Shown one piece after another: positions 7,234-41,777 of a DNA stretch of 45,228 nt. Made by a program: the position numbers and the translations under genes. The DNA lies in assembly GCA_024400875.1 (NCBI GenBank), contig JAKSMB010000010.1, positions 1 through 45,228 on the forward strand. The letters are read 5' to 3'. Numbering within the stretch: the stretch's first letter is position 1; every line of letters begins with the position of its first letter. A model generated the notes under the pieces. It was not told the origin of the DNA and did not search any database. It saw only the letters and a program-made list of their open reading frames with translations. The stretch is from Bacteroidales bacterium (GTDB lineage Bacteria > Bacteroidota > Bacteroidia > Bacteroidales > WCHB1-69).

Positions 7234-7251
7234 AATAAAAATTGTAGGTGG

Positions 7252-7259
7252 CAAAAATA
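7252..7259 (-). promoter_or_regulatory. -7 box for the M1 peptidase
   Basis: TATTTTTG on the minus strand, 18 bp upstream of the chosen ATG; it also argues against the ATG at 7254. Confidence 0.55.
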
Positions 7260-14515: not shown

Positions 14516-16756
14516 CTACATCCATTCTCTCGTAACGCTTTCCTTGCTTTTCAGAATGTCGCGTGGCACGCCTTGGAATAGCAGATGACCTCCTTCGTCA
14601 CCGCCACCCGGACCCAACTCAATGATGTAGTCTGCTTCTTTCATAACATCTAGACTGTGCTCGATGAGTATCAACGTGTTGCCGGCATCGGTCATCTTGT
14701 TGAACAACTTCATCAACTTGCGGATGTCGTCCAGATGCAATCCGTCGGTAGGCTCGTCCAAAATGAAAATCTCGCCCCGACAATGCAACTGGTCTGCGAG
14801 TTTGATGCGCTGTAACTCGCCACCGCTAAGCGTGGTCATCGACTGGTTGAGATGCAGATAGCCTAATCCCACATCTTGCAGAGCTTGTAGTTGTGACTCA
14901 AACGGTTGACCCTTGAAAAACTGCAAGGCTTCGTCAATGGAGAAGTCCATCACTTCGGCAATGTTTTTCCCATTGTAGGTGTATTGCAAGGTGTCTGTAT
15001 TGTAGCGGGTTCCGTGACAAACGTCGCAAACAGTTTCTATGGATTCCATGAATGCCATGTCGGAAACAATGACTCCTTTGCCGTTGCATGCGGGACAAGC
15101 CCCTGTGGAGTTGAAGGAGAACTGCTGCATGTTGGTGTGGTTGGCCTTGGCGAAGAGTTTGCGTATGGTGTCGGAAATGCCTAAATAGGTGGCTGGCGTG
15201 GAACGAAGATTGATGCCGATGCTTTTTTGTCCAATAAAGATGATGGAACTGCTGCATTGCTGCTGAAATTCTTCCATCAAGGAGCTTTTCCCAGAGCCTG
15301 CAACACCGGCGATAACGGTGAGCACGCCCATTGGAATGTCGAGCGTCAAATTCTTCAGATTGTGTAGATTTGCGTTGCGTAGGGTGAAACAACCTGTTGG
15401 CTTTCGTGTAGTTTGCTTGAAGGCGGTGGTCGCTTGTAGCATATCGCCTGTCAGAGTGTTGGATTTCAAAAGATCAGGGTAGGTGCCTTGGAACGTGATA
15501 TGTCCCCCGCCAGCGCCAGCAAGCGGTCCCATATCCACGATATGGTCGGCCATAGATATGATTTCTCGATGGTGTTCTACGATAAGGATGGTGTTGTTGT
15601 GGTCGCGCAACTGGCATAACGAGTGTTTCAAACGTGCAATGTCTTGCGGGTGTAATCCAACCGAGGGCTCGTCCAATACATACGCCATATCGGTGAGCGC
15701 TGAGTTGATGTACTTGGCAATCTTGATACGTTGTGCTTCGCCACCGCTGAGGGTGCCAGTGCCCCTGCTGAGCGATAGATAACCCAACCCGATGTTTATC
15801 AAAGCCTGAAGCCGGCGCTCCAACTCGCGTTTGAGGTCTATGGCTAAGGGGTCATTGATGCTTTGTATGAAAGTGAGGGCATCGGTGATTGACATCGCCA
15901 CTACGTCGGCGATGTTTTTCCCTTGTATCTTGCAACTGCGCACACGCTCGTTAACACGTGTGCCACGACAGTCTGGACACTCGAAAGTTGAGATCATCTT
16001 GTCCAAGATCTTCTGCTGCCGTTTGCCCTCTTTTGTGGTGATGATGCTACGGTACATACGCGGGTACATACCCTCGAACTTCGCCGACTTGGGCCAGTTG
16101 GAAGGTGGATTCTTCAACCGTATCTGTGGCGAATATAAGAATAAATCCAACTCCTCTTTGCTGTAATCTTTTATCTTTTTGTTCAAATCGAAAAGACCGC
16201 TATAGGCATAGCGCTTCCAACGCCACGCTCCCGTGGTGAAGGTCGGAAAGTGAATGACGTCCTCGTCGTTCAGACATTTGTCGAAATCTACCAGTTTGTG
16301 AATGTCCAGTTCGGTAACCTGCCCTAAACCCGTGCAACGCGGGCAGCTGCCCGACGGGTGATTGAAGGAAAAACTGTCGGAGTAGCCCACGAAAGGTTGT
16401 CCCACGCGTGAGAACAGCAGTCGCAGCAAGGCGTAGATGTCGGTGTAGGTTCCCACCGTAGAACGATTGTTGTTGGCGGGCTTTTTCTGGTCGATGACAA
16501 TGGAAACGGGCATATTTTCAATGCGTTCCACTTTGGGCCGTCCATATTTTGGAAGATATTGCTGGATGAAGGAGGGGAAGGTTTCGTTCAACTCGCGCCG
16601 ACTTTCGGCAGCGATGGTGTCTAAACATAGGGAACTCTTTCCAGAACCGGATACGCCGGTGAACACCGTGATTTTCTTTTTGGGTATTGCCAACGATACG
16701 TCATTCAGGTTGTTTTCCGAAGCGTGATAAATTCGAATTGGAGCGTGATCTTCCAT
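14516..16756 (-). CDS. UvrA-like excinuclease ATPase (UvrA2 type)
   Basis: A 746-residue protein with two ABC ATPase modules. Module 1: Walker A GVSGSGKSS at 34-42, zinc-finger halves CPRCTGLG and CPDCRGTR, signature LSGGEAQRIKIA, Walker B VLDEPSVGLHP. Module 2: GVAGSGKSSL, CPACNGKG and CDVCHGTR, LSGGELQRIKLA, ILDEPTDGLHL. At ~200 residues shorter than UvrA (~940), it lacks the UvrB-binding and insertion regions of the first module. This matches the UvrA2/DrrC-like branch, linked in other bacteria to tolerance of DNA-intercalating drugs rather than core excision repair. It opens a short operon with DUF1294. Confidence 0.88.
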   Translation of the reverse strand: MEDHAPIRIYHASENNLNDVSLAIPKKKITVFTGVSGSGKSSLCLDTIAAESRRELNETFPSFIQQYLPKYGRPKVERIENMPVSIVIDQKKPANNNRSTVGTYTDIYALLRLLFSRVGQPFVGYSDSFSFNHPSGSCPRCTGLGQVTELDIHKLVDFDKCLNDEDVIHFPTFTTGAWRWKRYAYSGLFDLNKKIKDYSKEELDLFLYSPQIRLKNPPSNWPKSAKFEGMYPRMYRSIITTKEGKRQQKILDKMISTFECPDCRGTRVNERVRSCKIQGKNIADVVAMSITDALTFIQSINDPLAIDLKRELERRLQALINIGLGYLSLSRGTGTLSGGEAQRIKIAKYINSALTDMAYVLDEPSVGLHPQDIARLKHSLCQLRDHNNTILIVEHHREIISMADHIVDMGPLAGAGGGHITFQGTYPDLLKSNTLTGDMLQATTAFKQTTRKPTGCFTLRNANLHNLKNLTLDIPMGVLTVIAGVAGSGKSSLMEEFQQQCSSSIIFIGQKSIGINLRSTPATYLGISDTIRKLFAKANHTNMQQFSFNSTGACPACNGKGVIVSDMAFMESIETVCDVCHGTRYNTDTLQYTYNGKNIAEVMDFSIDEALQFFKGQPFESQLQALQDVGLGYLHLNQSMTTLSGGELQRIKLADQLHCRGEIFILDEPTDGLHLDDIRKLMKLFNKMTDAGNTLILIEHSLDVMKEADYIIELGPGGGDEGGHLLFQGVPRDILKSKESVTREWM

Positions 16757-17623: not shown

Positions 17624-18607
17624 TTATTTGATCATTTTCTTGACGGTGCTGCCAGCGTTCGTCGTTATTTTTACGAAGTAGGAACCGGAAGCAAGTCTGG
17701 TGAGGTCAATAGGACCGTTGTAATTTTCAGTCATAAGCAGATGGCCTAATACGTCGTAGATTTGCACCGTTGCACCATCTGCACCCGTGAGCGTCATCGT
17801 GTTTTGTACGGGATTGGGCGCGAGGGTGATGTTGAGGTTATCGTGGCTTTGAATGCCAACACCTTCCGGTATGAAACGATATACGGTACCGGATGTTGGC
17901 ATGGCATTCAGATAGACGGATTCGAGGTCTATGTCCTCGTCGGAAGCGTCCAGCATAGATGCGGTTGGATCGTCAGGATCGCCCCAAACCACGATTGCTC
18001 GGCCGCTTTCGGTCATAGGGTTGAAGGCTTCGATGAGGGAGAAAAAACCATCTCCCTGGAGCTCTTCAACAACATCCGCCGTGACAGTGTTGTCGCCGAA
18101 ACGAAATTCCAGAATGTTGCTTCCTTCGTAAAACCATACTTGAATGTTTAATGTTACCTCGGGCTCGAAACCATAGATGGAGGCATTGTTCCATTCCAAT
18201 TTGCAGATGCGGCTGCCTTCTTCACCTTCCACTTTATAGGAAATGTTTGAGCAAGCGCCAGGTTCTTCCTCGTATTCGTAACAAGGGTCAATCAAGTCAA
18301 TGAACAGGGGAGAAAACAGGACGACGGTGCTGTAATATGCGCTTTCATCATCTAAATTCTGGTTGGCTATATCAACACCTGACATGTCCACATATAAGGT
18401 GTTGAATGTTTTGTCAAGTAAAGTAAAGGGAAATCCTAAGTCGAATTGATAGATTGGATCATCCCATTGTGTACCATTGTTTAGCGAGATGCTGTTGGTT
18501 AGGTTCAGATAGGTTTCGGTCGTTTTTTGAAATACATAGTTGGTTTGCGCTGTTGCCATAGCAAAGAGTCCGCATCCAATAATGACGGATAGAATATACT
18601 TTTTCAT
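17624..18607 (-). CDS. T9SS type-A sorting-domain protein, function unknown
   Basis: A 327-residue secreted protein. Signal peptide KKYILSVIIGCGLFAMATAQ leads into a ~200-residue beta-rich domain with an acidic, Cys-containing segment (CYEYEEEPGACSN) and aromatic strands (CKLEWNNASIYGF, ILEFRFGDN). The last ~75 residues (LNITLAPNPVQNTMTLTG ... LASGSYFVKITTNAG ... KKMIK) are a T9SS type-A sorting domain, so the product is secreted to or anchored at the cell surface. The body looks like a carbohydrate- or ligand-binding jelly roll, but I cannot name a family. It has its own promoter and terminator and appears monocistronic. Confidence 0.85.
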   Translation of the reverse strand: MKKYILSVIIGCGLFAMATAQTNYVFQKTTETYLNLTNSISLNNGTQWDDPIYQFDLGFPFTLLDKTFNTLYVDMSGVDIANQNLDDESAYYSTVVLFSPLFIDLIDPCYEYEEEPGACSNISYKVEGEEGSRICKLEWNNASIYGFEPEVTLNIQVWFYEGSNILEFRFGDNTVTADVVEELQGDGFFSLIEAFNPMTESGRAIVVWGDPDDPTASMLDASDEDIDLESVYLNAMPTSGTVYRFIPEGVGIQSHDNLNITLAPNPVQNTMTLTGADGATVQIYDVLGHLLMTENYNGPIDLTRLASGSYFVKITTNAGSTVKKMIK

Positions 18608-27288: not shown

Positions 27289-28224
27289 ATGAACGCATCT
27301 TCAATACTTTTACATATTCACGAACATGAGGCTGATATTACCAATTATTGGGGTGTCTTGGCAGAGGTGATGGAAAGTACGCTTCACATTACGCTTTTGG
27401 TGATTTTGATGATGGCGTTCATTGAGCTGATCAATGTCTCCTCGTCCGGAAAGCTGATGAAAAAGTTGCAAGGACATCCTTTTTTGCAAACGGTCATCTC
27501 TTGTCTGTTGGGTGCAATCCCGGGGTGCGCCGGTGGTTTTGCAGTGGTATCCATGTTTACTCACGATTTGCTGTCCTTTGGCGCATTGACAGGTGGCTTG
27601 GTGGCAACGTTTGGCGATGAAGCGTTTTTCCTTTTTGCCAAAGATCCCAAGACGGCATTCATCATCACAGGCGTTTTGTTCGCGCTAGGCGTTGTGGTGG
27701 CAACTGTCCTGAACTTAATAGGAAAGAAATGGCATTGGCGTATGGAAAACCATCGCTTTGACATACATGAGGAAAAAGATGCTCATGAACATCATCATGG
27801 AGAAAGCCATGGGCATAACTTTAAAAGCTGGTGTGAACATTTTTTTAAAGAACATCTTTGGGAGCATGTTATTAAGAAACACCTCTTGACCATATTCATG
27901 TGGTCGTTCGGTGTGCTGTTGGTGGTTAAGACTATCGGCTATTTCGTGGACATAGAGATGCTTATGGAAACCCATGTGTGGGCGAAGTACCTGCTGCTGC
28001 TGGTTGCGGTATGCGTTGGTTTTATTCCTGAATCGGGCCCGAATCTCATTTTCGTCGTGATGTTCCTGGAGGGCAACCTCCCGTTTGGCATCCTTTTAGC
28101 CAATAGCATCTCCCAAAATGGTCACGCCGGACTTCCATTGTTGGCCCAATCTCGCAAAACGTTCTTCGTTCTGAAAACCATAACTCTGCTGTTAGGTTTG
28201 GTCGTTGGTTTTCTGCTTATATAA
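27289..28224 (+). CDS. putative manganese/heavy-metal exporter (10-TM family)
   Basis: A 311-residue membrane protein. An N-terminal His/Glu cluster (HIHEHEAD) is followed by helices with LLGAIPGCAGGFAVVSMFTH and LVATFGDEAFFLF, then a His-rich cytoplasmic loop (HEEKDAHEHHHGESHGH) and a second half with a pseudo-repeat (VGFIPESGPNLIFVVMFLEG; NSISQNGHAGLPLLA). The paired GAIPGCAGG / GFIPESGPN motifs are those of the 10-TM heavy-metal exporter family (ArsP_2-like), members of which export Mn. The His loop fits metal sensing or delivery. The leader is only ~35 bp, too short for a yybP-ykoY Mn riboswitch. Confidence 0.85.
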   Translation: MNASSILLHIHEHEADITNYWGVLAEVMESTLHITLLVILMMAFIELINVSSSGKLMKKLQGHPFLQTVISCLLGAIPGCAGGFAVVSMFTHDLLSFGALTGGLVATFGDEAFFLFAKDPKTAFIITGVLFALGVVVATVLNLIGKKWHWRMENHRFDIHEEKDAHEHHHGESHGHNFKSWCEHFFKEHLWEHVIKKHLLTIFMWSFGVLLVVKTIGYFVDIEMLMETHVWAKYLLLLVAVCVGFIPESGPNLIFVVMFLEGNLPFGILLANSISQNGHAGLPLLAQSRKTFFVLKTITLLLGLVVGFLLI

Positions 28225-28384: not shown

Positions 28385-30268
28385 ATGGGAAAGAGATTAC
28401 CCGTTTTTCTTATCTTGTTATGGAGCATATTGGCTGTGAATTTTGTTCACGGCCAGGGGCGTATACGCGAAAGAATCAACGATGTAAAAAACGCAGATCC
28501 ATTTGCTATTAGTGGACAAGTGGGGACGGGAATGGGTGTTTCATACAATTCAAATCAACCTGGAAGTACCCCTTTTTCTGCTAATATTTATGCCAGCTTG
28601 AATCTGTCATTCTATAGTTTTGAGCTGCCGTTGTCTTTCTATTTTAGTGATAATACAACTTCTTTTAGCTATCCGCAGTTGCCTACCTTCCATCTTGGAT
28701 TTATGCCAACGTGGCGCAATTTCAAGTTCCATATTGGTAGCAGTAGCATGCACTTCTCAAACTACACCTATTCGGGTTTGACCTTTATGGGTGGTGGTCT
28801 GGAATATCAGGGAAAACTGTTCCGCGCGTCTGCTTTCGGTGGCCTGTTGAACCGCGCGACACGCCCGAAGGGTTACGACGACCGCACCGCTATTCAGCAG
28901 TTGGCCGACTCTTTGTTAGGCTTGAACGTGCCCGAGGCTGATCTTCCTCAGTATCGTCGCGACGCTGTTGGTTTTAAGGTGGGTGTCGGCAATGAACGAA
29001 ACTTCATAGATTTCAGTGTCTTAAAAGCTAAAGATAAACTGAAGTCGTTGCCAGAAGAATGGCGAGACACAATTGCTCCGGAAGAGAATTTAGCAATTGG
29101 TCTTTCAGGTCGATTTGCCATAAAGAAGTGGTTCTCCTTTACCGCCAACTTGGGCGCAAGCGTGTATACCAACGATACCCGTGATTCCTTGGCTTCGATG
29201 ATCGGCAAGGAAGAGGCCGTGCAAAAATTGGTGAAATATACCAACTGGCTGATGCCATTCTGTAACAATACGAACTTCCGTTTGGCCGGCGATGCTGCCA
29301 TGAACTTCATAGCAAAAGGCTTTAATGGAAGTTTGACCTACCGTTTTATCCAACCTGACTATGTCTCCTTGGGCGCCTCAAAGTTCAATCAAAACTCCCA
29401 TAGCTTGGGTACGGTGATGAACTTCACAATGTTTAGAGGCCACTCGAACTTGAACCTTGTGGGTTACCTGCAACGTGACAACCTGAACAAAAAGCAGATG
29501 TATATGAACCAAGTGGCTACCTATTCATTGAACTGGAACAACCATATTGGCAATATTTTCAATATGGGTATCAATTATAGCGGCATCAAACAGGATCAGT
29601 TCAGCGGAACTTGTATCCTGGCCGATAGCCTTAAATTAAACCAAATCGTACATACACTTACTGTATCGCCTTCATTTACCATAGAAAAGGAATATACCCA
29701 CACGATTGGACTGAATGCTAACTTCGTACAGAATAGTAATCTCAACAAGTCTTATATCAATGGTGTAAATATAAAGACTTTGACAACGGGCATCTCATAC
29801 GGCATCGACTTTTCAGAAATCCGTCTGGGTGTTGATGCTGGTTACGATTTCTCTATGTCTTCGTCTGAATTCGCGAAGTATAATTCCCATGGCCTCAATG
29901 CGGGCGTGAACTATAAAATCATGCAAAAGGACAAACTGAGCTGGAATGTGAACTATAACGGCTCGTTTGCATACAATATTCAAAAGATGGATGGCGTGGA
30001 AAACGACTTCTCCATAAGTAATAGCATTGGTAGCAACTTCAGTTTCAACAAGGCCCATACGGCATCGTTGTATCTGTCGTTGAGCAATTTCAGTGATAAT
30101 GAACGTATTGGCCAACGTGTGGCTACCGATCTTGATTGTCGTTTTACCCTATCATACTCCTATTCATTTGCAGCGAGGGTGATTAAGAAAAAGACGAAAG
30201 CGGAAAGAGCACAAGATCGTCTTACTCGTAAAGCTGACAAACTGCAAAAACAAAGTGTAAAAAAATAA
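28385..30268 (+). CDS. outer-membrane beta-barrel protein, megaprotein locus
   Basis: A 627-residue exported protein: signal peptide KRLPVFLILLWSILAVNFVHG cleaved before QGR. From residue ~40 to ~595 alternating aromatic/polar strands recur (SFYSFELPLSFYFSDN, LNLVGYLQRDN, SLNWNNHIGNIFNMGINYSG, ISYGIDFSEIRLGVDAGYDF), typical of a large outer-membrane barrel. It lacks a TonB plug or POTRA domain. After the last strand (RFTLSYSYSFAARV) comes a ~35-residue very basic tail (KKKTKAERAQDRLTRKADK), unlike a barrel that ends in a terminal aromatic residue. It is encoded 21 bp before the 2916-residue megaprotein, so a role as its secretion or anchoring partner is plausible. Family not recognised. Confidence 0.72.
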   Translation: MGKRLPVFLILLWSILAVNFVHGQGRIRERINDVKNADPFAISGQVGTGMGVSYNSNQPGSTPFSANIYASLNLSFYSFELPLSFYFSDNTTSFSYPQLPTFHLGFMPTWRNFKFHIGSSSMHFSNYTYSGLTFMGGGLEYQGKLFRASAFGGLLNRATRPKGYDDRTAIQQLADSLLGLNVPEADLPQYRRDAVGFKVGVGNERNFIDFSVLKAKDKLKSLPEEWRDTIAPEENLAIGLSGRFAIKKWFSFTANLGASVYTNDTRDSLASMIGKEEAVQKLVKYTNWLMPFCNNTNFRLAGDAAMNFIAKGFNGSLTYRFIQPDYVSLGASKFNQNSHSLGTVMNFTMFRGHSNLNLVGYLQRDNLNKKQMYMNQVATYSLNWNNHIGNIFNMGINYSGIKQDQFSGTCILADSLKLNQIVHTLTVSPSFTIEKEYTHTIGLNANFVQNSNLNKSYINGVNIKTLTTGISYGIDFSEIRLGVDAGYDFSMSSSEFAKYNSHGLNAGVNYKIMQKDKLSWNVNYNGSFAYNIQKMDGVENDFSISNSIGSNFSFNKAHTASLYLSLSNFSDNERIGQRVATDLDCRFTLSYSYSFAARVIKKKTKAERAQDRLTRKADKLQKQSVKK

Positions 30269-30289
30269 CCCAAGATAATTCAATCGTCT

Positions 30290-33200
30290 ATGAAAAAGAT
30301 ATTTATCTTCTCGTTTTTATTGTTCTCCATAATTTTCCAATTGGGAAGACTTTCTGCACAGATTGTGACGACCATCACACCAAAGGTGAGCCTGTTCCCA
30401 TCTTCAGGTTTTAGCTATGTGGACGACCCCGCCCGTTATTTCAACATCCAGATGATCAACACTCAGGGTGATTCAAAACAGGTGTTCATCACCTTGGATA
30501 TCACGTGTGATTTCTCTGCTACGGGTGAGAATATCTATCTGAAAACCAAAAAGTCGTCGCAGCCGCATACCCCGCTGACTATTGGCTCGACTCCCGTTCA
30601 ATTGAATAGGGCTATCTTCGATCAACTGTTGGGACACCTCGGTCGTGGAGACTTGGATTACAACTTTGGTAAGGATAGACTGTCCGACGTGCTAACATTG
30701 CCGGAAGGCCAGTATAGAATATGTATTACACCGTATGAATGGACGGGGCATAATGATCAGAATCCAACGCAGTTGGGTGAACCTTGCTGCTATTCCTTTA
30801 CAATTTGCTATTCGGGCTCTGCTCCGGAGTTCACCTCTCCAGTGAATGGCTTTAGTGCCGCTAACCTCAACAATAGCAATCCCGCTAATAACTTGCTGTC
30901 GGCATCACCGAGTATCACATCCGATAACCGCAATTCTGCCGCTTATACCATATTGCCCTTACAACGCACGCTGAACTTCAACTGGACGGGCGTTATCTCC
31001 AACTGCTTGGCACCGAATGATTTCAACTATACGTTGAAACTCGTTGAAGTTTATAAAAATCAGAACGTGCAGGAGGCTATTCGCACTAATGCAACCCTGG
31101 CAACGATTGACGTGAAATCGAAAACGATGTACTCACATGATACGACGTCCAATCGCCATTTCCGTTTGAAACCTGGTCATGTGTATGCCGCTCAGGTGAT
31201 TGCCACATTGAAGGGCTCTATGATGACAGAGGTGCGCTTGGGCAATGAAGGAAAAAGTCAGGTGATTGCCTTCGTATGGGGCGATGTTCCTGTGGTTCAA
31301 GAATTACAAAGCAATACATCTTCCAATGTCTCTGATAATAGAGACGAGGTGCTGAAGTCTATCCGCACACCGTATCTTGTTGATCCAGGTAAGGATAAGA
31401 CTACTATTGATGCATTGAAAAAATCGTTCTCTTCGGAAAAGACCAATGAACCAGCTGATGACAATTACGGCACATACGTTTCTGGCGATGAACCTTACTA
31501 TAAGGTGAAGCCGTCAGATTCTTTGTTGGTGAAGTGGATGCCGGTACGTGGCGACTCCGTCTTCAAAGTTAACTATGTGGCTGAATTGTATGAATATGTA
31601 GGTGGCCCGGTGGCCAACTCTATGAATGTGACACCTATAAAGTCTAAAGGTGTTGACTTGGAAGCGCCACACGACTTTGGCGTATCAAATACCGAGGTGA
31701 TCAATATCGCAACGAATGGTTGGTCTGACACCTTGAAGGAAGGCTATAAATACGTACTTAACCTGAAGGCCGAAACCTTCTTCTCCTACAATGAGAAAAC
31801 AACTTATACGATAACAGATTACGTACATAATACGCCAACGAATAGAGATAGCGTGGTGAACTCAGTGAAGTTCTCCAGCGAAATGCTTCAGTCGAACGTC
31901 GTTTTCGCATGGGGCGTTGATAGTGGCGCACTTGACAAGGTTACCCCACCGCAGTTTACCTATCCTGTGGATAACTCCAAACGTGCATGGAACGATAGCA
32001 CTTGGACGGAGATTCCGGAAGTCGTTAAACGCGAGGACTTCTCCTTCCGTTGGAAGGCCGCTTCTGGCGTCGACTACGGCGATTCCGTCTTCTACAACTT
32101 GCGCATCGCCAAACTGCCGAAGGGTAAAACCCCGCAACAAGTGAAGGATACGTTCTACTTTAAATCAAATATCACAGATCTTTCTTATATCGATACCGTG
32201 CTGTTCGACTCCATCAAGGTGAACGAACAGTATCTGGCCATCTTGGAAACGAATATTAAGCAGTTGGGCGATACCTCTTCTCATTATAATATGTTGAATG
32301 GAGGTAAATCCTTGTATGCAACGTTCAAGCTGAAACCAGAACCGGAATTCAAGGCTGATATCAACACAAAGATTAAGTGCTTCCCTGATAAACTGAAGGA
32401 TTTAAGCAAGGAAACCATTACCCCGTCCACGGAAAGCCTCATTACCGAAAAGAAAAAACTGAAGATCGGCGACTTCCCGTTGGTGGTGCAGACCGCAACC
32501 TACGATACGACCAAGAAGGTGTATAATGGTGATGGTTACGTGATTTGGCATCCGCTGGGCGTTGACGTCCGTTTGAAAGTTCATTTCGATTCTGTACAAA
32601 TCAATAAAAACTACGAGATTATCAAAGGTACGGCAGTGAGTACAGCGACCGACTCTTCCACCTATCTTCCTGGTTTGATGAACGATCTGGAGATGGATAA
32701 GTGGACCAATGATGATATTAACAACATCACGTCAAAGTTGGGCGAAAACGAAACTATCAAGGGGTATTATGATAAGTTCCAAGAATATGGTGAGAAGTAT
32801 GGCAAGAAATATGGTGGTCTGTTAGGCCCAATCGTGGGTGAGAACATGGCTACCGAGGTGATGACCTTCCCATTGAGTATTACGGATGAAGATATTACCG
32901 GTTCGAAGAACATCATCTTCGCCATCAACAATATGTACTTCTCTCCGGAAACATCTTTGATGAATCTCTGGGCAATCTTTGCCGCTCAAAGCGATAACGG
33001 TTATGTACCGTTCCTCGCTAACAATATATGTATGGATCAACAAGGCTTCTTGGGTAACTCCAGTCAACATATCGAACTCTATATGGGTAGAGACTATGAG
33101 TTTACGATGCAGGATGGCTACAAGGTCCGTTTCAAAGCCTCATCCGATTTTGCCAACCCTAAAGATGGTACGGTTATCGTAGTGGATTCTGCAAAACTCG

Positions 33201-36200
33201 ATTATATGATGGCTGAAATCCATTTCGATATGGATAACAGTGATGTCTATGGTATCGAAGCGGATGGCACACCGCGTAAGGGTAAAACCGTTACGGCGAA
33301 ATTGCAGGCTAAAATTAAAGAATGGGACAACTGGTGGGCTAAAATTACGATGGACCCATTTGCTGTGGCCGATTGTGATCGCTTCACCTTCGTTCCTACA
33401 GGTAAGGGTATCTACTATGACCACTCTTCTACGGAAACACCAAATGGTATCACTTTCCCATCAAACTACCTGATGAATCAGGATAGTATTGCTACGGCGA
33501 ATAGTAATATAAAGGATGAAAAGACAAAGAAAGAGAAGGAAGATGAAGCAAAGAAGGCTTTGAATAAGGCTACCAAAGAGTGGCAAGGTTTCTATTGGGA
33601 CGAGTTGACCGTATTCCTTTCTGATGAAATCAGCAATACCTTTACGGAAGAGTCTAAGGACAGAAAAGACTCTATGGTTCAATATACCTATGGTATCAAC
33701 GGTACGATTAAGGATTCTGTACATTATTATTATCCAGGAAGCCGAATCAACTTCGGTGCAAAACAGTTGATGATTGACCACTCAGGTTTTACGGCCGAAC
33801 TCTTTGCCCGCGATTTGATTAACGCGGAAACAAAAGATGGTGGTGGTTGGGCTTTCTCTTTGGATACTATTCGTGTGAACTTTGTGAAGAACAAATATAA
33901 AGAAGGTGTCATCAAGGGTGGATTCGGCATTCCGTTGTTCAGTGGCGGCTTCGACTATAATTGCTCCATTGGTTCCGACAGCTTGATGTTTGGTATTACG
34001 GCTAAGAACGATTCTCTGAAACTGGACATGTGGGTGGCCAATGTTCAATTTGATAGTGCTTCTTCCTATTTCAGAATCAAGAAAATCTACAAAGAAGACC
34101 GTACTCGCATTGATTTGACGATGAATGGTAAGATCAATGTGGACTTCAACAAGATTGGTCTTCCGCTCAATTTTGCATTGGCGAAGTTTGAGCACATGGG
34201 TATGCGTAACTACAACTTAAGCGGCAAACCGAAAGAGGGTACCGCTTCTATTGATAAGTTTGAATTCGATATTGGTGAGTGGTCGTTCGCTTCTCCGCAG
34301 AAGACCATTGGCGGGGCACCGTCGACGGGTGCTGGCGTACCGGCAGATGATAAGAACGTGGCATCCGTATCGTTTGGTGGCTTCACGTTCAGTATCACCA
34401 AACTTGATCCGATTATCGGATTTGAGGGAAACAACCTGAAATTGGGTATCTCAACAGGCGGCCAGATAAAGTTTGCAACCGAAGGTACCGACCTCGGCGC
34501 ATCTTGCGGCTTCTCCTTCTGGGGTATCGTTAACCCGAAAGATCACTTCAAGGTGGTTAAGGTGGACGGAAAACTGAACTCTATTAAATTTGATAAGATC
34601 AACTTTGAGGTGTTTACCTTGGATGGCTCGCTCGACTTCTTCGACAGCAAGAGCAATCCCGCCCCAGGTGGTACAAGCGGCAATGGCTTCGGCGGCTCAC
34701 TCAAGGTGACCATGATGAGCAAGGTTGAACTTGCTATGAAGGTCGGTTTCGGCTCTGAAGGCTCCGGTAGCAGCAAATATACATGGTGGTACTTCGATGG
34801 CGCTTGCAAGTTCCCAGGCGGTATTCCATTGGGCGCCGTAAGCATCAACGGCTTTTCTGGCGGTTTTGCTTATAATATGGCAGCTAAAAAATCACTCACC
34901 GATCCAAGCTACAACGCTGTAAATCTTCTGAAACAGGCTGACAAAAACACCAACGAGGATAAGACGTTCGCCTCTGGTATGGACTTCAAACCTTCAAAGA
35001 ATAGCTGGGTGGCTAATGCCGGTATCAGCATCACGCTTACGGGTCAGGAGAATACGATGAACGCCGATGGTTTGGTTTCTTTGCGTATCGCAAACAAACA
35101 CTTCTCCGGTATCTTCATCGATGCAAATGCTTACGTGCTCAGTAAGATGGACAAAACGAAAACGCCGGGTGACGGTAGCAACAACACCTCCCCGTTGATC
35201 CGCGCAAAGGCTATTATGGGCTTTGAAACAACCAAGAAATACGACTATTTCCGTCTCTCTATCGCTGTCAAGGCCAACATCAATCTGCAAAACTTGTTGG
35301 AAGGTGTAAGTTCAACGACGTTAGGTAGCGCGTTGTCGGGTATTCACGGGGGTACATCTCTGCTTACCAGTTCGAACGTGACCAAGACCTTGGATGCTCT
35401 AACAAATAACAAATCCGGTTTAGGTTCACACACTGCAAGCGACCGCGAGTCGGCAGCTGCCGCCTCAAACAACTCTGGAGCTTCTTCTGTAGGCTTCAGC
35501 GTAACGGCCAGCATCCCTATCGACTTCGAGTTGAAATACTATAAGGAAAAAGAGGGCACCCATAAGAAAGGCTCCACCGACTGGTACTTTGCAATCGGTA
35601 AACCGAAATATGAAGAACGCGTTCAACTGAAAGCGGATCTGGACCTTGTCATCTGCAAGTCCAATGCGGAATTCACCTTCTATATGCAAACCGGTAATGC
35701 ATTTGCTTACCAGATGCCACCTTTGAGCAAGGATTTGCAGAACTTCTTCTTCGGCTCGGGTAGCGGTAAGAAAAACGACGCTAGCCGTGATGATATCAAG
35801 AAAAACCGTATGATTTCATCCACCGACTGGTTGAATATCGACAAGGGGGGTGGCTTCTGTATGGGTTCAACTTTCCACGCTTACGTGGGCTTCGACTGCT
35901 TCCTGTACGTGCATGTGACTGCAGACCTTGGTTTCGACGTTGCCTTAATGAACGTGAATGGCGTTGGCTGTCCGGGACATCCGCAGATTGGTAAACACAA
36001 CTTCTATGCACTCGGTCGTGCTTACGCTGCCTTGCAAGGTGACGTTGGCTTGAAATTGAACCTCGGTTTCTGGAAGGGCGAAATCTCCCTCTTCAAGGCG
36101 GGTGTAGGTGCGCTCCTGCAAGGCGGTGGCCCGAACCCATCCTTCGCCTATGGCTTGCTCAGATTCAAGGTTAGCATGCTCAATGGTCTGCTTAAATTCA

Positions 36201-39040
36201 ACACCAGCGTCGATTTCTCTATGGGTGATGTCTGCGTGCCAGGTGTGGGCGACCCGTTGGCGAACGTGAAACTGTTCCAGAACGTAACTCCGGGCTTCGG
36301 TACGGAGGCTGCGGCAAATACAAAGAGCAATCTCCAATCTCCATTGCAAGTCGGCACCATCGTGTCTAACATGCCGTGGGATACGGATGTATATTTGAGC
36401 GATGGCCAAACGACCCGTCGTTTCAGATTTACCCTCGTTGAAAAAAATATCTCCTATTCTTTGAAACCGACCAACAAGAATTCCTATACTGTGGTTACTT
36501 CAAATGAACAGAAACTTCAATTCACTCCAAATTCGGATGATCCTAACGCTATTTTCTTTGAAACAAAAGAGGGTGGCTTTGTGGAAGATTGCAATGCTAA
36601 GTATTTCTTGAGAGCGATGGCCTTCGAAAGAAGAAAAACGGCACAAGGCGATACCAAAAACTACACTCTCCTGAATGGTAACGACTATCCGTATTATGTT
36701 ACGGGTGCCAATAGAGGTACGAAGAAAACAAGCAACACATCTGGATACGACTGGTTTGATCCTACCTTCTATAATGAAAAGACGAAGAAAAATGACGTAA
36801 AGGCCTTCAGGAAGGATACCACGATGTATTTCAAGACGATGGATATCGGCAACAGCGTGGGTGAGGTGGCCGTGTTCAGTTGGCCGTACAATGGTGATCA
36901 GGTCTTCCCGTGTAAGGAATATGTGCATACTGGCTCTGGCTCCAATGCGCAACCGTATGCTATGCTTTACTTGTACAAACAATGCGATAACCTGTTTGAC
37001 AAGACGACGTTGAGCAATAAAGGTAAGCAACTCAAAATCTTCTTGTTGGGTAACGGTGGTGAAAAGGGCGATGTGTATGAATGTAGCTATACCTACTATA
37101 AGAATGCTACCGTCCCGTACGTGAAGGTTGCACTGCCGAAGAAACTTTATCAGTCTGATTTTGGTCCGCATAAACTTCGTTTCCTGGTGGTGGGCAAATC
37201 ACAGTATGATTCCGCTGTGGAGGCTGCAAGGAAGGCCATGACGGAAAAGAAGAAGGAACTTACGCAGTTGACCTCTAATTCGGTGTACAACCAGGCAACG
37301 AATGCTCATAAAGCCAACACCTCAAGTTCTGGCAAGAAGAGCGTTAACATCCAGAATCAGCAACTGGATGAAATCTACAACAACAAACAAAGCAATGGTA
37401 AGGATACGATGCTTTATTATCGTACACAGATGAAGAGCGACTTTTCAATATGCTCATCTATTGGCGAATGTATTTACGAATGGAACTGGTTCGTAGAAGG
37501 CAATTTTGATACGTATAACGAATTCTATCGTAAATATTATAACAGTTCTTTTGCAAGTCAGTTCCGAACATCCTCGGTTTACGATTATGGAACGTACAAT
37601 AGAATCCGATCTGGAAGTGTCAACTGTTATGCCTTAATTGAAAACCCATGGCCATTTATGAGCTATGATCCTTCAGAGTTGAAGGTCTATGCAAATGGTT
37701 GTGTGATGCCACCGCGTGCGTATTTCGCCATTAAGACGAATGGCAAAGGCTATACCGCTTTTTGGTGTATGCACAACGACTTCTATAGACGTTTTGTAAA
37801 TCTGTCGAACGATTTCAAAGAAACACCGTTGTTGCTGTATCGTTACACCGACAATAGCGGCGATGTGGATTACAACTTTAGCAAGTCGGTAAAGGATGCG
37901 CGTACGGTTAACGATGCCTCATTGCAGTCGGAACTCACCAACCGCTTGAAAGGTGGTTTGATTCGCAATTATACAACGTACTTCAAAGAAATCAGTTTGC
38001 GTGTGGGTGCCAATAACGACGTCTATCAAAATTGTTCCAAGGCAACATACGATCCTACGAAATCGAATTATAACTATACAAAGCCGGTTATTTTGAAGTT
38101 TGGCAATGGAATGGAACTGGAGCCGATGGACGAGAAGTACTTCGACAAGGAACGATCTGGTACATATAGTCTTGGACACACAGAAGCGCGTAATTACGGA
38201 TGGTGTATTTATGACTATGCAACGTATGCCGCATCCGATGATATTAAGAAATTCGCCAACTTCTTCCAAGAAAATGTGATCCATGCTCAACGTTACAACG
38301 GCAGAGGTTGGAGCCATAAGGTTGACTATTTCAAGGATTATTATAGTAACAAATACCGCAACTCAAGCATGTCATACGCAGATTTTCCGTATGATATGCC
38401 GGAAATCTATATTGTTACACACTATATGACAGCATTGCAGAACTTATATAGGGCAACCCAAAAGAATTACTCGTATGCAACCATCTATGATGGTACTTTC
38501 CAACTCTGTAACAAAAATGATTACTACATCCCTGCTTCTACGCTGCAATTGAAGGATGCCTATTGGGCTCTACATTGGTGGCAGTCGTATGCTCAGACCT
38601 TGGACTTCGAAGGAAATGGCTTCGACCGTGACTTTTATTATAGAAAAGACAATGCTAAGTATTACAACTATTTGTATAATAGGGATTTGAAGAGTAAGAA
38701 CAGCTCCTACAAGTCTTCGTTCCTGCCTCATCAATCTGAAAATTATTTTCCTGTGAATAATATGAAAATAGTAACTACGAAGTCGATACAGAATTACATC
38801 TGTATTTATTATATGACGGCTCAAAGCAGCGATTTCGAAAATTCGTTGATGCAGACGGCATACGATGTGAAATATAAGAAGGAGCTGATTTTCCATCCGA
38901 ATGCTATATACGATTTAAATGATGCGTATTATACCATTCCTTGGTCCAATACATGCACCTTTATGAATGTGAATCTTGGCAACTTTGGCTTGAAATATAT
39001 AAAGGATAATTATGGTAACATGGGTGAGTTTGGTCGTTAA
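30290..39040 (+). CDS. 2916-residue secreted megaprotein with TANFOR-like N-terminus
   Basis: Signal peptide KIFIFSFLLFSIIFQLGRLSA (cleavage before QIV). Residues ~25-180 (VTTITPKVSLFPSS ... LPEGQYRICITPYEW) resemble the TANFOR domain of large Bacteroidetes surface proteins, followed by FN3-like segments (LNFNWTGVISN, YTLKLVEVYKN). Residues ~700-1980 are long beta-rich repeats with Gly-rich amphipathic strands (FGGFTFSITKLDPIIGFEG, GFSGGFAYNM), suggesting a beta-solenoid or lipid-binding groove; a charged coil (KTKKEKEDEAKKALNKATKE) lies at ~1075-1100. Residues ~2050-2916 are Tyr/Asn/Ser-rich and end without a T9SS sorting domain. It sits between a barrel gene and an FN3 gene, probably as a surface or periplasm-spanning component. 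Function unknown; I know of no characterised homologue. Confidence 0.78.
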   Translation: MKKIFIFSFLLFSIIFQLGRLSAQIVTTITPKVSLFPSSGFSYVDDPARYFNIQMINTQGDSKQVFITLDITCDFSATGENIYLKTKKSSQPHTPLTIGSTPVQLNRAIFDQLLGHLGRGDLDYNFGKDRLSDVLTLPEGQYRICITPYEWTGHNDQNPTQLGEPCCYSFTICYSGSAPEFTSPVNGFSAANLNNSNPANNLLSASPSITSDNRNSAAYTILPLQRTLNFNWTGVISNCLAPNDFNYTLKLVEVYKNQNVQEAIRTNATLATIDVKSKTMYSHDTTSNRHFRLKPGHVYAAQVIATLKGSMMTEVRLGNEGKSQVIAFVWGDVPVVQELQSNTSSNVSDNRDEVLKSIRTPYLVDPGKDKTTIDALKKSFSSEKTNEPADDNYGTYVSGDEPYYKVKPSDSLLVKWMPVRGDSVFKVNYVAELYEYVGGPVANSMNVTPIKSKGVDLEAPHDFGVSNTEVINIATNGWSDTLKEGYKYVLNLKAETFFSYNEKTTYTITDYVHNTPTNRDSVVNSVKFSSEMLQSNVVFAWGVDSGALDKVTPPQFTYPVDNSKRAWNDSTWTEIPEVVKREDFSFRWKAASGVDYGDSVFYNLRIAKLPKGKTPQQVKDTFYFKSNITDLSYIDTVLFDSIKVNEQYLAILETNIKQLGDTSSHYNMLNGGKSLYATFKLKPEPEFKADINTKIKCFPDKLKDLSKETITPSTESLITEKKKLKIGDFPLVVQTATYDTTKKVYNGDGYVIWHPLGVDVRLKVHFDSVQINKNYEIIKGTAVSTATDSSTYLPGLMNDLEMDKWTNDDINNITSKLGENETIKGYYDKFQEYGEKYGKKYGGLLGPIVGENMATEVMTFPLSITDEDITGSKNIIFAINNMYFSPETSLMNLWAIFAAQSDNGYVPFLANNICMDQQGFLGNSSQHIELYMGRDYEFTMQDGYKVRFKASSDFANPKDGTVIVVDSAKLDYMMAEIHFDMDNSDVYGIEADGTPRKGKTVTAKLQAKIKEWDNWWAKITMDPFAVADCDRFTFVPTGKGIYYDHSSTETPNGITFPSNYLMNQDSIATANSNIKDEKTKKEKEDEAKKALNKATKEWQGFYWDELTVFLSDEISNTFTEESKDRKDSMVQYTYGINGTIKDSVHYYYPGSRINFGAKQLMIDHSGFTAELFARDLINAETKDGGGWAFSLDTIRVNFVKNKYKEGVIKGGFGIPLFSGGFDYNCSIGSDSLMFGITAKNDSLKLDMWVANVQFDSASSYFRIKKIYKEDRTRIDLTMNGKINVDFNKIGLPLNFALAKFEHMGMRNYNLSGKPKEGTASIDKFEFDIGEWSFASPQKTIGGAPSTGAGVPADDKNVASVSFGGFTFSITKLDPIIGFEGNNLKLGISTGGQIKFATEGTDLGASCGFSFWGIVNPKDHFKVVKVDGKLNSIKFDKINFEVFTLDGSLDFFDSKSNPAPGGTSGNGFGGSLKVTMMSKVELAMKVGFGSEGSGSSKYTWWYFDGACKFPGGIPLGAVSINGFSGGFAYNMAAKKSLTDPSYNAVNLLKQADKNTNEDKTFASGMDFKPSKNSWVANAGISITLTGQENTMNADGLVSLRIANKHFSGIFIDANAYVLSKMDKTKTPGDGSNNTSPLIRAKAIMGFETTKKYDYFRLSIAVKANINLQNLLEGVSSTTLGSALSGIHGGTSLLTSSNVTKTLDALTNNKSGLGSHTASDRESAAAASNNSGASSVGFSVTASIPIDFELKYYKEKEGTHKKGSTDWYFAIGKPKYEERVQLKADLDLVICKSNAEFTFYMQTGNAFAYQMPPLSKDLQNFFFGSGSGKKNDASRDDIKKNRMISSTDWLNIDKGGGFCMGSTFHAYVGFDCFLYVHVTADLGFDVALMNVNGVGCPGHPQIGKHNFYALGRAYAALQGDVGLKLNLGFWKGEISLFKAGVGALLQGGGPNPSFAYGLLRFKVSMLNGLLKFNTSVDFSMGDVCVPGVGDPLANVKLFQNVTPGFGTEAAANTKSNLQSPLQVGTIVSNMPWDTDVYLSDGQTTRRFRFTLVEKNISYSLKPTNKNSYTVVTSNEQKLQFTPNSDDPNAIFFETKEGGFVEDCNAKYFLRAMAFERRKTAQGDTKNYTLLNGNDYPYYVTGANRGTKKTSNTSGYDWFDPTFYNEKTKKNDVKAFRKDTTMYFKTMDIGNSVGEVAVFSWPYNGDQVFPCKEYVHTGSGSNAQPYAMLYLYKQCDNLFDKTTLSNKGKQLKIFLLGNGGEKGDVYECSYTYYKNATVPYVKVALPKKLYQSDFGPHKLRFLVVGKSQYDSAVEAARKAMTEKKKELTQLTSNSVYNQATNAHKANTSSSGKKSVNIQNQQLDEIYNNKQSNGKDTMLYYRTQMKSDFSICSSIGECIYEWNWFVEGNFDTYNEFYRKYYNSSFASQFRTSSVYDYGTYNRIRSGSVNCYALIENPWPFMSYDPSELKVYANGCVMPPRAYFAIKTNGKGYTAFWCMHNDFYRRFVNLSNDFKETPLLLYRYTDNSGDVDYNFSKSVKDARTVNDASLQSELTNRLKGGLIRNYTTYFKEISLRVGANNDVYQNCSKATYDPTKSNYNYTKPVILKFGNGMELEPMDEKYFDKERSGTYSLGHTEARNYGWCIYDYATYAASDDIKKFANFFQENVIHAQRYNGRGWSHKVDYFKDYYSNKYRNSSMSYADFPYDMPEIYIVTHYMTALQNLYRATQKNYSYATIYDGTFQLCNKNDYYIPASTLQLKDAYWALHWWQSYAQTLDFEGNGFDRDFYYRKDNAKYYNYLYNRDLKSKNSSYKSSFLPHQSENYFPVNNMKIVTTKSIQNYICIYYMTAQSSDFENSLMQTAYDVKYKKELIFHPNAIYDLNDAYYTIPWSNTCTFMNVNLGNFGLKYIKDNYGNMGEFGR

Positions 39041-39053
39041 GAAAAATAGAATT

Positions 39054-41258
39054 ATGAAAAAGATAAATAAACAGTTAATCAAGTTTCTTTTTGCAGGTAT
39101 TTGTCTGCTAAATCTGGGCGGATTGTTTGCTCAGGATGATCAGTCGCCGGTGGCGAACGAACCGGATACCACCTATCAGATTCCGGAGACTATTTTCTAT
39201 GTGAGATCCACGGCGCGAAGTTATGGCGATAGCATCGTGCTACGTTGGGCGCCCGAAAATGCCGGTGTCTGGATTTCTGCCAACTATTACGGATGGAATA
39301 TCATCCGCGATAGGGACGAGGATGATATCAAGGAGACGGATACCATTTTTAAAATGCAACTCAACGATAATCCGATCCGTCCGTTGACATTAGAACAGAT
39401 GATGCAACGCTACGATTCCACCAATCTCTTCGTGGGTGCGGCGGCGCAAGCGCTTTATGGCGAATCCTACTATAACCCGCAGGAGGGCGACGGCCTGGTG
39501 AACTACGTGTTCCGTAGAGAACAGGAACAGACCCAACGTCAGATGATGGCTTACATGGCTGCCGAAAGCAGCCGCGATGCCGCCGACGCTCTCGGCCTCC
39601 GCTTCGTGGACCGCAATGTGAAGAAGGGTCACTCCTATACGTACCGCATCGAGTGCCTCATTCCCGAAGAGGACGCCATCGTGCCTATCAACATTGTGGA
39701 AGTGGATTGCACACCTTACGAACGCCAATACGACGAACGTATTAGCAAAGTGAAAATCTACCAGGCTTCTCCCTATACCGCGTTCATCTATTGTGAGAAG
39801 AACAAACTGTCGGGCTACTATTTCGAACGCAGCACCGATAACGGCAAACACTGGACCGCCCTCAACACTTCTCCTGTATATGGCTATAAACCTACCAAGG
39901 ATGAATACGATGTGTATGGTGAAGATCTTGCCCGCCTGATGGAAGGTAATGTCGGCATCCTCGACTCCCTGAGCTTGAACATCTCCTACAAATACCGTGT
40001 CCGCGCTTTTGATGCGTTCGCCGATTTTGCCCCAGAAGTTGAGTCGGAGACTTTCCAAATGGAGGATTTCATTGCGCCAACGGTACCGGTTCTGGAAGAA
40101 GTCGTTCCGGAAGATAACAAGACCTGCACCCTGAACTGGACTATGGACAAGCAGGATGACGACCTCAAGGGTTTTGTGATTGCCTTCTCCGATGACCCAA
40201 GCGGTCCTTGGGAAAAGGTTACCGACCTGTTGCCTATCAATACCCGCGAATGGGTGGATAACAATGCCCACGACCGTGGCCGCGGCTTTTACCGCGTCTT
40301 CGCCTTGGACAACAATAACAACTACTCGTTCTCTCTGTCACAAATCAACAATATCGAAGACGATGTGGCCCCTTCCGCCCCTACGGGTGTGACCGCCATC
40401 GTGGATACGGCAGGCGTGCTCTATATGCAATGGAACGAAAATCCGGAAAAGGATGTCCTCGGCTATCGTGTCTATTTCGCCAACCAACTCGACCACGACT
40501 TTATCCAAAGAACCGGCCGCCGTATTGAAAACGATACCACGTTCATCGATACGTTGAACCGCCGAACGCTGACTCGCAGAATCTATTTCTACGTGGTAGC
40601 AGAAGATAACAGTCACAACTTCTCCGCCCCTTCGGATACGTTGGCAGTGCCTGTACCCGATATCGTGCCTCCAGGCGTGGCCGTGCTTAAAGACCACACG
40701 CAAACCGACGAGTCGGTGACCTTCACCTGGCTGCAAAGTACTTCCGAAGATGTTGCTTTCTACTATGTCTATCGCAAAAAAGATAACGAACAACAGTGGA
40801 AATGCATCAAGATTATCAAACCGGAGGAACTGGAACCTAAAGCGCATATCGTGTTTACGGATTATCCTGAACCATCTGCTCAGAATTACAACTATTGTAT
40901 AGAAGTGATTGATGAAAGCCGTCTCTCATCTGGCAAGACCGGTCAAACAACCGTTCGCTTCAGAGGTTCTGCTTTCGTAGAGGTCCCGATGACATTGAAG
41001 GCTTCGCTCACTAAAACCAAGGCTGTGAAGTTGGATTTTACCTACGATTATCCATCCAAGAATAAATATTATGGCGTTGTGTTCAAATCCGTGAACGATG
41101 AACCAGCATACGCGTTCACCAGTTTTCAACGTGGCGAAAACTCTTGTATGGACTACAAGGTGGAGCAGGGACAAAAGGTGACCTACTACATCCAGATGTT
41201 CTTAGGCAAAGGCAAGCGATCCAAACCTTCGAAATCCGTTACGCTTACAGTGAAATAG
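39054..41258 (+). CDS. fibronectin type III repeat secreted protein
   Basis: A 734-residue protein. The ATG at 39054 is chosen because it follows the megaprotein stop by 13 bp and starts a signal peptide (KKINKQLIKFLFAGICLLN ... GLFAQ). An N-terminal ~300-residue region contains FN3-like strands (SIVLRWAPENAGVWI, SYTYRIECLIPEED). At least three clear FN3 domains follow, starting near residues 338 (IAPTVPVLEEVVPEDN), 436 (VAPSAPTGVTAIVDTAG) and 536 (VPPGVAVLKDHTQTDE), with a fourth partial one at the end. There is no T9SS sorting domain or lipobox. Likely a periplasmic or surface binding partner of the megaprotein. Confidence 0.87.
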   Translation: MKKINKQLIKFLFAGICLLNLGGLFAQDDQSPVANEPDTTYQIPETIFYVRSTARSYGDSIVLRWAPENAGVWISANYYGWNIIRDRDEDDIKETDTIFKMQLNDNPIRPLTLEQMMQRYDSTNLFVGAAAQALYGESYYNPQEGDGLVNYVFRREQEQTQRQMMAYMAAESSRDAADALGLRFVDRNVKKGHSYTYRIECLIPEEDAIVPINIVEVDCTPYERQYDERISKVKIYQASPYTAFIYCEKNKLSGYYFERSTDNGKHWTALNTSPVYGYKPTKDEYDVYGEDLARLMEGNVGILDSLSLNISYKYRVRAFDAFADFAPEVESETFQMEDFIAPTVPVLEEVVPEDNKTCTLNWTMDKQDDDLKGFVIAFSDDPSGPWEKVTDLLPINTREWVDNNAHDRGRGFYRVFALDNNNNYSFSLSQINNIEDDVAPSAPTGVTAIVDTAGVLYMQWNENPEKDVLGYRVYFANQLDHDFIQRTGRRIENDTTFIDTLNRRTLTRRIYFYVVAEDNSHNFSAPSDTLAVPVPDIVPPGVAVLKDHTQTDESVTFTWLQSTSEDVAFYYVYRKKDNEQQWKCIKIIKPEELEPKAHIVFTDYPEPSAQNYNYCIEVIDESRLSSGKTGQTTVRFRGSAFVEVPMTLKASLTKTKAVKLDFTYDYPSKNKYYGVVFKSVNDEPAYAFTSFQRGENSCMDYKVEQGQKVTYYIQMFLGKGKRSKPSKSVTLTVK

Positions 41259-41315: not shown

Positions 41316-41777
41316 ATGAAAAAAATTTTTTTGATGACATTAGTGGCAGGTATTGCCATGATTTTCGCATCCTGCGGAAAAGAAGTTAATTTGGCTGGTA
41401 CCAGCTGGCACGCAGATGAAACCTATACGAAGCAACTCGTTGTAAGCGGTATTACGGCAGACTGTGTGTTCAACTTTGACGTTGATCTTAATTTTACAGA
41501 TGCTACTACGGGTACTATGAACGCAAAGTACAGCGGAACCATAACAGCAATGGGTCAAGAGCATCCCGTTCCAGATGGTGGCGGTACCGACAGCTTTACC
41601 TACACATTTGACGGCGAAAATGGTGTGCTGTACTCTACCGATCCTAACGAGACCGAAACAATCCCTTTCACCTATGATAAGAAAGAAAAAATGATTGTGA
41701 TCAACCTCGACTTTGACAATAGTGACGAAATGCCGGGTCTTGAATTCCATATTCCATTGCATTTCAAACGTCAATAA
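41316..41777 (+). CDS. small lipocalin-like lipoprotein
   Basis: A 153-residue lipoprotein: KKIFLMTLVAGIAMIFASC ends in a lipobox at Cys20. The mature part begins GKEVNLAGTSWHADE and continues in alternating strands (CVFNFDVDLNFTDATTGTMN, SFTYTFDGENGVLYST, KMIVINLDFDNSDE), the pattern of small lipocalin-like Bacteroidetes lipoproteins that open with a GTSW motif. Role unknown. It follows the FN3 gene after 57 bp with no clear -7 box between, so it may be the last gene of the megaprotein operon. Confidence 0.75.
   Translation: MKKIFLMTLVAGIAMIFASCGKEVNLAGTSWHADETYTKQLVVSGITADCVFNFDVDLNFTDATTGTMNAKYSGTITAMGQEHPVPDGGGTDSFTYTFDGENGVLYSTDPNETETIPFTYDKKEKMIVINLDFDNSDEMPGLEFHIPLHFKRQ

Follow-up and report, generated by a model that had tools for sequence, protein, structure and literature searches.

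A conserved barrel, giant-protein and FN3 gene cassette in Bacteroidota and its possible connection to type IX secretion

The three-gene locus and its conservation

We analysed a 45,228-nt stretch of DNA (the window) from a Bacteroidales bacterium (GCA_024400875.1, contig JAKSMB010000010.1; positions refer to the forward strand of the window), in which three closely spaced genes encode a putative outer-membrane barrel protein, a giant protein predicted to be exported and a protein with FN3 repeats. The features are as follows, each with the evidence that defines it.

28385..30268, + strand: putative outer-membrane barrel protein, 627 aa (open reading frame, ORF; signal peptide by eye; family matches in relatives)
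30290..39040, + strand: giant protein, predicted to be exported, 2916 aa (ORF; conservation in relatives)
30359..30859, + strand: TANFOR-like N-terminal domain of the giant, about residues 24–190 (profile match to the N-terminus of the giant at locus L040, 1.7e-8; hhalign, 96.9%)
32441..33484, + strand: giant core segment M2, residues 718–1065 (profile searches)
33740..34354, + strand: giant core segment M3, residues 1151–1355 (profile searches)
35408..36349, + strand: giant core segment K2, residues 1707–2020, the best conserved part within the clade (profile searches)
37382..39037, + strand: C-terminal region of the giant, residues 2365–2916, the least conserved part, without family match and matched only within the close clade
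39054..41258, + strand: FN3-repeat protein with a signal peptide by eye (PF00041; probable start 39054)

The barrel and giant genes are separated by 21 bp. The FN3 ORF is open from 39012 (39012–41258, 748 aa) and overlaps the end of the giant ORF; its start is probably the ATG at 39054, which gives a gap of 13 bp to the giant. Signal peptides of the trio were judged by eye on the translations rather than by a predictor. Searches of Pfam and NCBIfam gave one credible family for the trio, the FN3 domain of the third protein (PF00041, 4.9e-7), and otherwise only weak matches below cut-off; neither collection revealed a sorting domain of the type IX secretion system (T9SS) in any of the three proteins. 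A sequence search of solved structures (PDB) found nothing credible for barrel or giant and only generic FN3 chains for the FN3 protein. The layout and gaps, the FN3 identity of the third protein and the absence of sorting domains agree with a first-pass annotation of the window.

Four loci from metagenome-assembled genomes (L009–L012; Bacteroidales or Bacteroidetes with RUG isolate names, which we take to indicate rumen origin) and a genome of the same genus (G414, locus L097) carry the trio. These close relatives were found via the giant or the barrel, and the order barrel–giant–FN3 with small gaps is kept in all five. Relative to the window, the proteins of L009–L012 are 69–71% (barrel), 54–65% (giant) and 63–68% (FN3) identical. 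Since pairwise identities of the products among five genomes, the window's being one of them, range from 54 to 77%, the trio is real beyond chance. None of the three was matched in a second congener, G296, whose listed completeness is 99%, whereas G414 has them all, so presence is patchy within a single genus.

Two surveys covered 168 genomes of the order and 296 of the phylum. In the order, the barrel profile matched 27 genomes, the giant core 20 and the FN3 protein 32. The barrel was present in 18 of the 20 core-positive genomes (Fisher 1e-15, kinship ignored) and FN3 at ≥ 60 bits in 19; all three, at this FN3 threshold, occurred together in 18 genomes. The link is not absolute, as 8 of the 27 barrel-positive genomes are without an FN3 match at ≥ 60 bits and 9 are without a core match. 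Across the phylum, the five-row barrel profile matched 43 genomes. The FN3 profile matched 104, many only over generic FN3 stretches; 32 genomes reached at least 100 bits, and 21 of these are also barrel-positive.

With iterated profiles, barrel, FN3 and giant family members were found together in 57 of 79 loci, also under stricter criteria. The 79 were picked for having matches; they include the window, and some of them share a genome (L076, a locus of 1 kb, was excluded). Of the remaining 22, several break off at the end of a locus or contig; in others, among them L037, L088, L093 and L108, a member is absent from the stretch seen. The usual gene orders are barrel–giant–FN3 and giant–FN3–barrel, with giant–barrel–FN3 at L106. 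Of 143 adjacent pairs of family genes on the same strand, 99 are no more than 60 bp apart. As a check for profile drift, the reversed sequences of 703 ORFs from chosen loci were searched with all six iterated profiles and gave 0 matches. Judged by these comparisons of sequence, the trio is one conserved unit that recurs, in divergent versions, through the phylum. The earlier suggestion that the genes behave as a unit is therefore upheld by the gene-neighbourhood survey it had called for, within the limits given above for the order; the giant was not found alone as ordinary T9SS cargo.

Upstream of the trio lies a gene for an arsenic-efflux family protein (27289–28224; Pfam/NCBIfam). Downstream, a lipoprotein ORF (41316–41777) starts 57 bp past the FN3 gene, as first annotated, and is followed by a gene that presumably encodes a pyruvate phosphate dikinase-like protein. 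We rejected the lipoprotein as a fourth member, as no such gene is conserved downstream in the five relatives and the region after FN3 differs among them. L009 has a small protein whose end looks CTD-like by eye (C-terminal domain, CTD). L012 has a Fib_succ_major protein, and the protein in L010 starts similarly. In the 900 bp read of L011 no gene is evident on that strand, and about 2.3 kb of L097 contain no ORF of ≥ 100 aa on it. T9SS cargo nearby, also noted in the first pass, is indicated by two Por_Secre_tail matches outside the trio (4927–5130 and 17630–17818); the ORFs that bear them (4903–7254 and 17624–18607) are likely T9SS cargo. The window further encodes a 746-aa ABC ATPase (14516–16756) with a match to a DnaJ-type zinc motif, which we take to be perhaps a short UvrA-like protein.

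Barrel, TANFOR-like domain and giant core

The window barrel has no credible match of its own in Pfam or NCBIfam; its last strand-like motif, LSYSYSF, is followed by a charged tail of ∼ 35 aa. It is called a barrel on the strength of its relatives. When 49 family members, the window's among them, were scanned at E ≤ 0.01, PF14905 (outer membrane beta-barrel) was matched in three, PF19089 (membrane-bound beta-barrel) in one and PF13557 in one, and 34 of the 51 members that have a stop codon end in Phe. The assignment made at first pass is thus supported at the level of the family, not by the window protein itself.

The TANFOR domain is known from putative polymorphic toxins whose gene neighbours include FN3 and T9SS-cargo genes (Jana et al., 2020; PMC7073777). 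TIGR02542, the TANFOR model, gave no match in the window's genome, and none by hmmscan in the N-terminal 200 aa of the giant. When compared by hhalign with eight TIGR02542-positive N-termini, the N-terminus of the giant scored 96.9% (E 1.9e-10), and a single-pass profile of its first 200 residues matched the N-terminus of the L040 giant (1.7e-8), which TIGR02542 also matches. These profile comparisons make the N-terminal region of the window giant a distant homologue of TANFOR; the TANFOR-like start noted earlier stands as remote homology, not as direct recognition by TIGR02542. In the phylum, TIGR02542 matches 8 of the 296 genomes, none above cut-off. For seven of these eight, a fetched locus that bears a match also contains an FN3-family gene, and for six of the seven it contains the barrel as well; the eighth genome, G247, lay outside the locus comparison. 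A TANFOR-like N-terminus and a barrel domain are fused in single proteins at L054:1509–4352, L055:3524–6139 and L083:7010–9721, loci that also contain giant and FN3 genes.

The giant core (M2, M3 and K2) has no specific family match. It is fused to the N-terminal domain in 28 giants, while 15 complete cores are without this domain, six of them with a separate protein that carries it in the same locus. Giants of ∼ 4000 aa with the N-terminal domain and without the core lie between barrel and FN3 genes at L044, L057, L058, L059, L061, L064 and L065.

Export route and role of the cassette

SprA (TIGR04189) is present in 229 of the 296 phylum genomes (228 above cut-off), in all 43 barrel-positive genomes (Fisher p 7e-6, kinship ignored) and in all 32 with a strong FN3 match. 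Large unrelated proteins adjoin FN3 or barrel genes in other loci; eight such proteins, a subset, were scanned (L012, L046 and six others), and six have SprB repeats together with a CTD. The neighbour at L099, cut by the locus end, has a sub-cut-off SprB match only. The SprB/CTD neighbours fit the gene-neighbourhood result of Jana et al. (2020). Together, SprA in all barrel-positive genomes and SprB/CTD genes in several loci point towards a cassette that works alongside the T9SS.

The explanation that we favour, tentatively and at somewhat less than an even chance, is a T9SS-linked surface cassette in which the giant is retained at the outer membrane by the barrel. In its favour are the conserved gene order and co-occurrence, the TANFOR homology, the TANFOR–barrel fusions, the N-terminal domain joined to the core in 28 giants or encoded separately in six loci, SprA in all barrel-positive genomes, the SprB/CTD neighbours and the precedent of type B CTD proteins with linked PorP/SprF barrels. 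From sequence we infer the location, contacts, export route and purpose of the products as follows. The three genes would form an operon-like cassette whose products cooperate at the outer membrane. All three, to judge by their signal peptides, would be exported by Sec, and the barrel would insert into the outer membrane. Most likely assisted by the T9SS, though not by way of a standard sorting domain, the giant would reach the surface and be held there by the barrel, perhaps via its TANFOR-like N-terminal domain, with the FN3 protein as an adaptor or spacer in the same complex. The conserved core may be the body of the structure and the fast-evolving C-terminal region may face a target or ligand; TANFOR proteins that relatives encode separately, including at least one that ends in a toxin domain, may share this apparatus. 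A more far-reaching proposal, which we regard as doubtful, is that barrel, giant core (M2–M3–K2) and FN3 protein constitute an undescribed, phylum-wide surface delivery apparatus working with the T9SS, in which the TANFOR domain is the tag that docks the apparatus and separate toxins on the barrel.

Several observations weigh against the favoured explanation. No separate protein with the N-terminal domain was found in the fetched stretch for 9 of the 15 complete cores that are without it, and since only six have one, our confidence both in this explanation and in the docking tag is lowered. L040 was the sole match below 0.05 to the single-pass 200-residue profile in 20 loci, and a profile of the giant's N-terminal 740 residues matched 6 of the 296 phylum genomes, its own and five others weakly; the wider giant family rests on iterated profiles, single-pass matches being few. 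The core of G313 lies on a different contig from its barrel and FN3 genes. At E ≤ 0.01, Pfam assigned none of the 49 barrels to a PorP/SprF-type family. A sorting domain was detected in none of 54 giant or TANFOR C-termini (Pfam and NCBIfam, the latter presumably including TIGR04131, the type B CTD model) and in 1 of 58 FN3 C-termini (NCBIfam only), so that a T9SS route would need an unknown signal. In the protein that follows FN3 at L012, SprB repeats and a CTD are both absent. Finally, the association with SprA ignores kinship, and among the SprA-negative genomes listed (20 of 67), 17 come from one family.

It is unlikely that the giant is a polymorphic toxin as in Jana et al. (2020), its C-terminal region being a toxin delivered to other cells. 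Such a role is suggested by the TANFOR-like N-terminus and by a TANFOR protein of 1726 aa (L069:12925–18105) that ends in Col-Pyo_DNase (colicin/pyocin DNase) and shares its locus with FN3 and barrel genes. It would also suit the C-terminal region of the window giant, whose last 550 residues have the lowest mean identity among six clade members (window included), 42% compared with 47% in the gap-rich linker before it and 53–71% in the rest. The region has no match in the tested loci outside the close clade, and the clade's tail does not match the tail common to other giants at E ≤ 10. However, no toxin family was found in the window giant (Pfam, NCBIfam), and L069 is the only one of the 54 giant or TANFOR C-termini with a Pfam toxin domain. 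Many TANFOR proteins are without a recognisable toxin (PMC7073777), and a toxin fold yet to be described is conceivable. The six clade members keep homologous tails that are not swapped, and the relatives examined show no conserved immunity-like gene after the cassette. Swapped (polymorphic) tails were also considered for the core giants as a whole and rejected: when the tails of 42 of them (≥ 150 aa) were compared by BLAST, 314 of 811 divergent pairs were linked and 497 were not, so many, not most, share a recognisable tail, whereas K2 segments were linked in 751 of the same pairs. Six giants are practically tail-less.

A giant that stays in the periplasm and connects the cell wall or inner membrane with the barrel would account for the absence of a CTD, the very long core without family match and the linked barrel. 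We consider this improbable, as the FN3 and SprB/CTD neighbours suggest the surface and the patchy presence (barrel in 7 of 17 listed genomes of group g7, none in the congener G296) is unlike that of a core envelope part. The least probable reading is that of the first-pass annotation, a dedicated export system in which the barrel is a T9SS-independent conduit for the giant across the outer membrane with the FN3 protein as adaptor: the close genetic linkage between a single barrel and a single giant and the lack of a CTD on the giants would suit it, but the barrel profile matched only SprA-positive genomes (0 of 67 SprA-negative), SprB/CTD genes occur in the loci, and Pfam revealed no secretion-pore family among the 49 barrels.

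Comparison with known systems

The first-pass annotation knew of no characterised system with this composition, which is correct in part. TANFOR proteins have a paper devoted to them that reports FN3 and T9SS-cargo neighbours (PMC7073777, from a search of open-licence PMC; earlier mention elsewhere is possible), and a linked barrel goes unmentioned in its main text, where 'barrel' and 'porin' occur 0 times. T9SS export of TANFOR proteins is only hypothesised there (Jana et al., 2020). The window giant is like these proteins in its remote TANFOR-type N-terminus, its putative signal peptide and its very large size. The neighbours reported for the class are present as well, with an FN3 gene 13 bp downstream and two CTD ORFs elsewhere in the window; relatives of the cassette have SprB/CTD genes nearby, and the hosts bear a T9SS. 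It differs in that it is not recognised by TIGR02542, that no toxin domain was found, and that it has a long conserved core without family model, plus a linked barrel. This class of giant Bacteroidota proteins, whose export is so far a matter of hypothesis, can now be given a clearly delimited unit of three genes that includes a barrel partner, and if the barrel and FN3 proteins prove to be delivery parts, the surface arrival of TANFOR proteins and related giants would become testable by single-gene deletions.

The second comparison is with the type B CTD adhesins of the SprB–SprF kind. Passages of PMC9143113 and PMC12618676 describe type B CTD proteins as binding or needing linked PorP/SprF barrels, the barrel being needed by its giant for secretion or anchoring. 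The window-type giant differs from these adhesins in that no sorting domain was found on it and that there is an extra FN3 gene, and the cassette barrels differ in that PorP/SprF was matched in 0 of 49. The window barrel is also larger than SprF. By analogy, the two systems have in common that the gene for a very large protein is linked to that for an outer-membrane barrel of its own.

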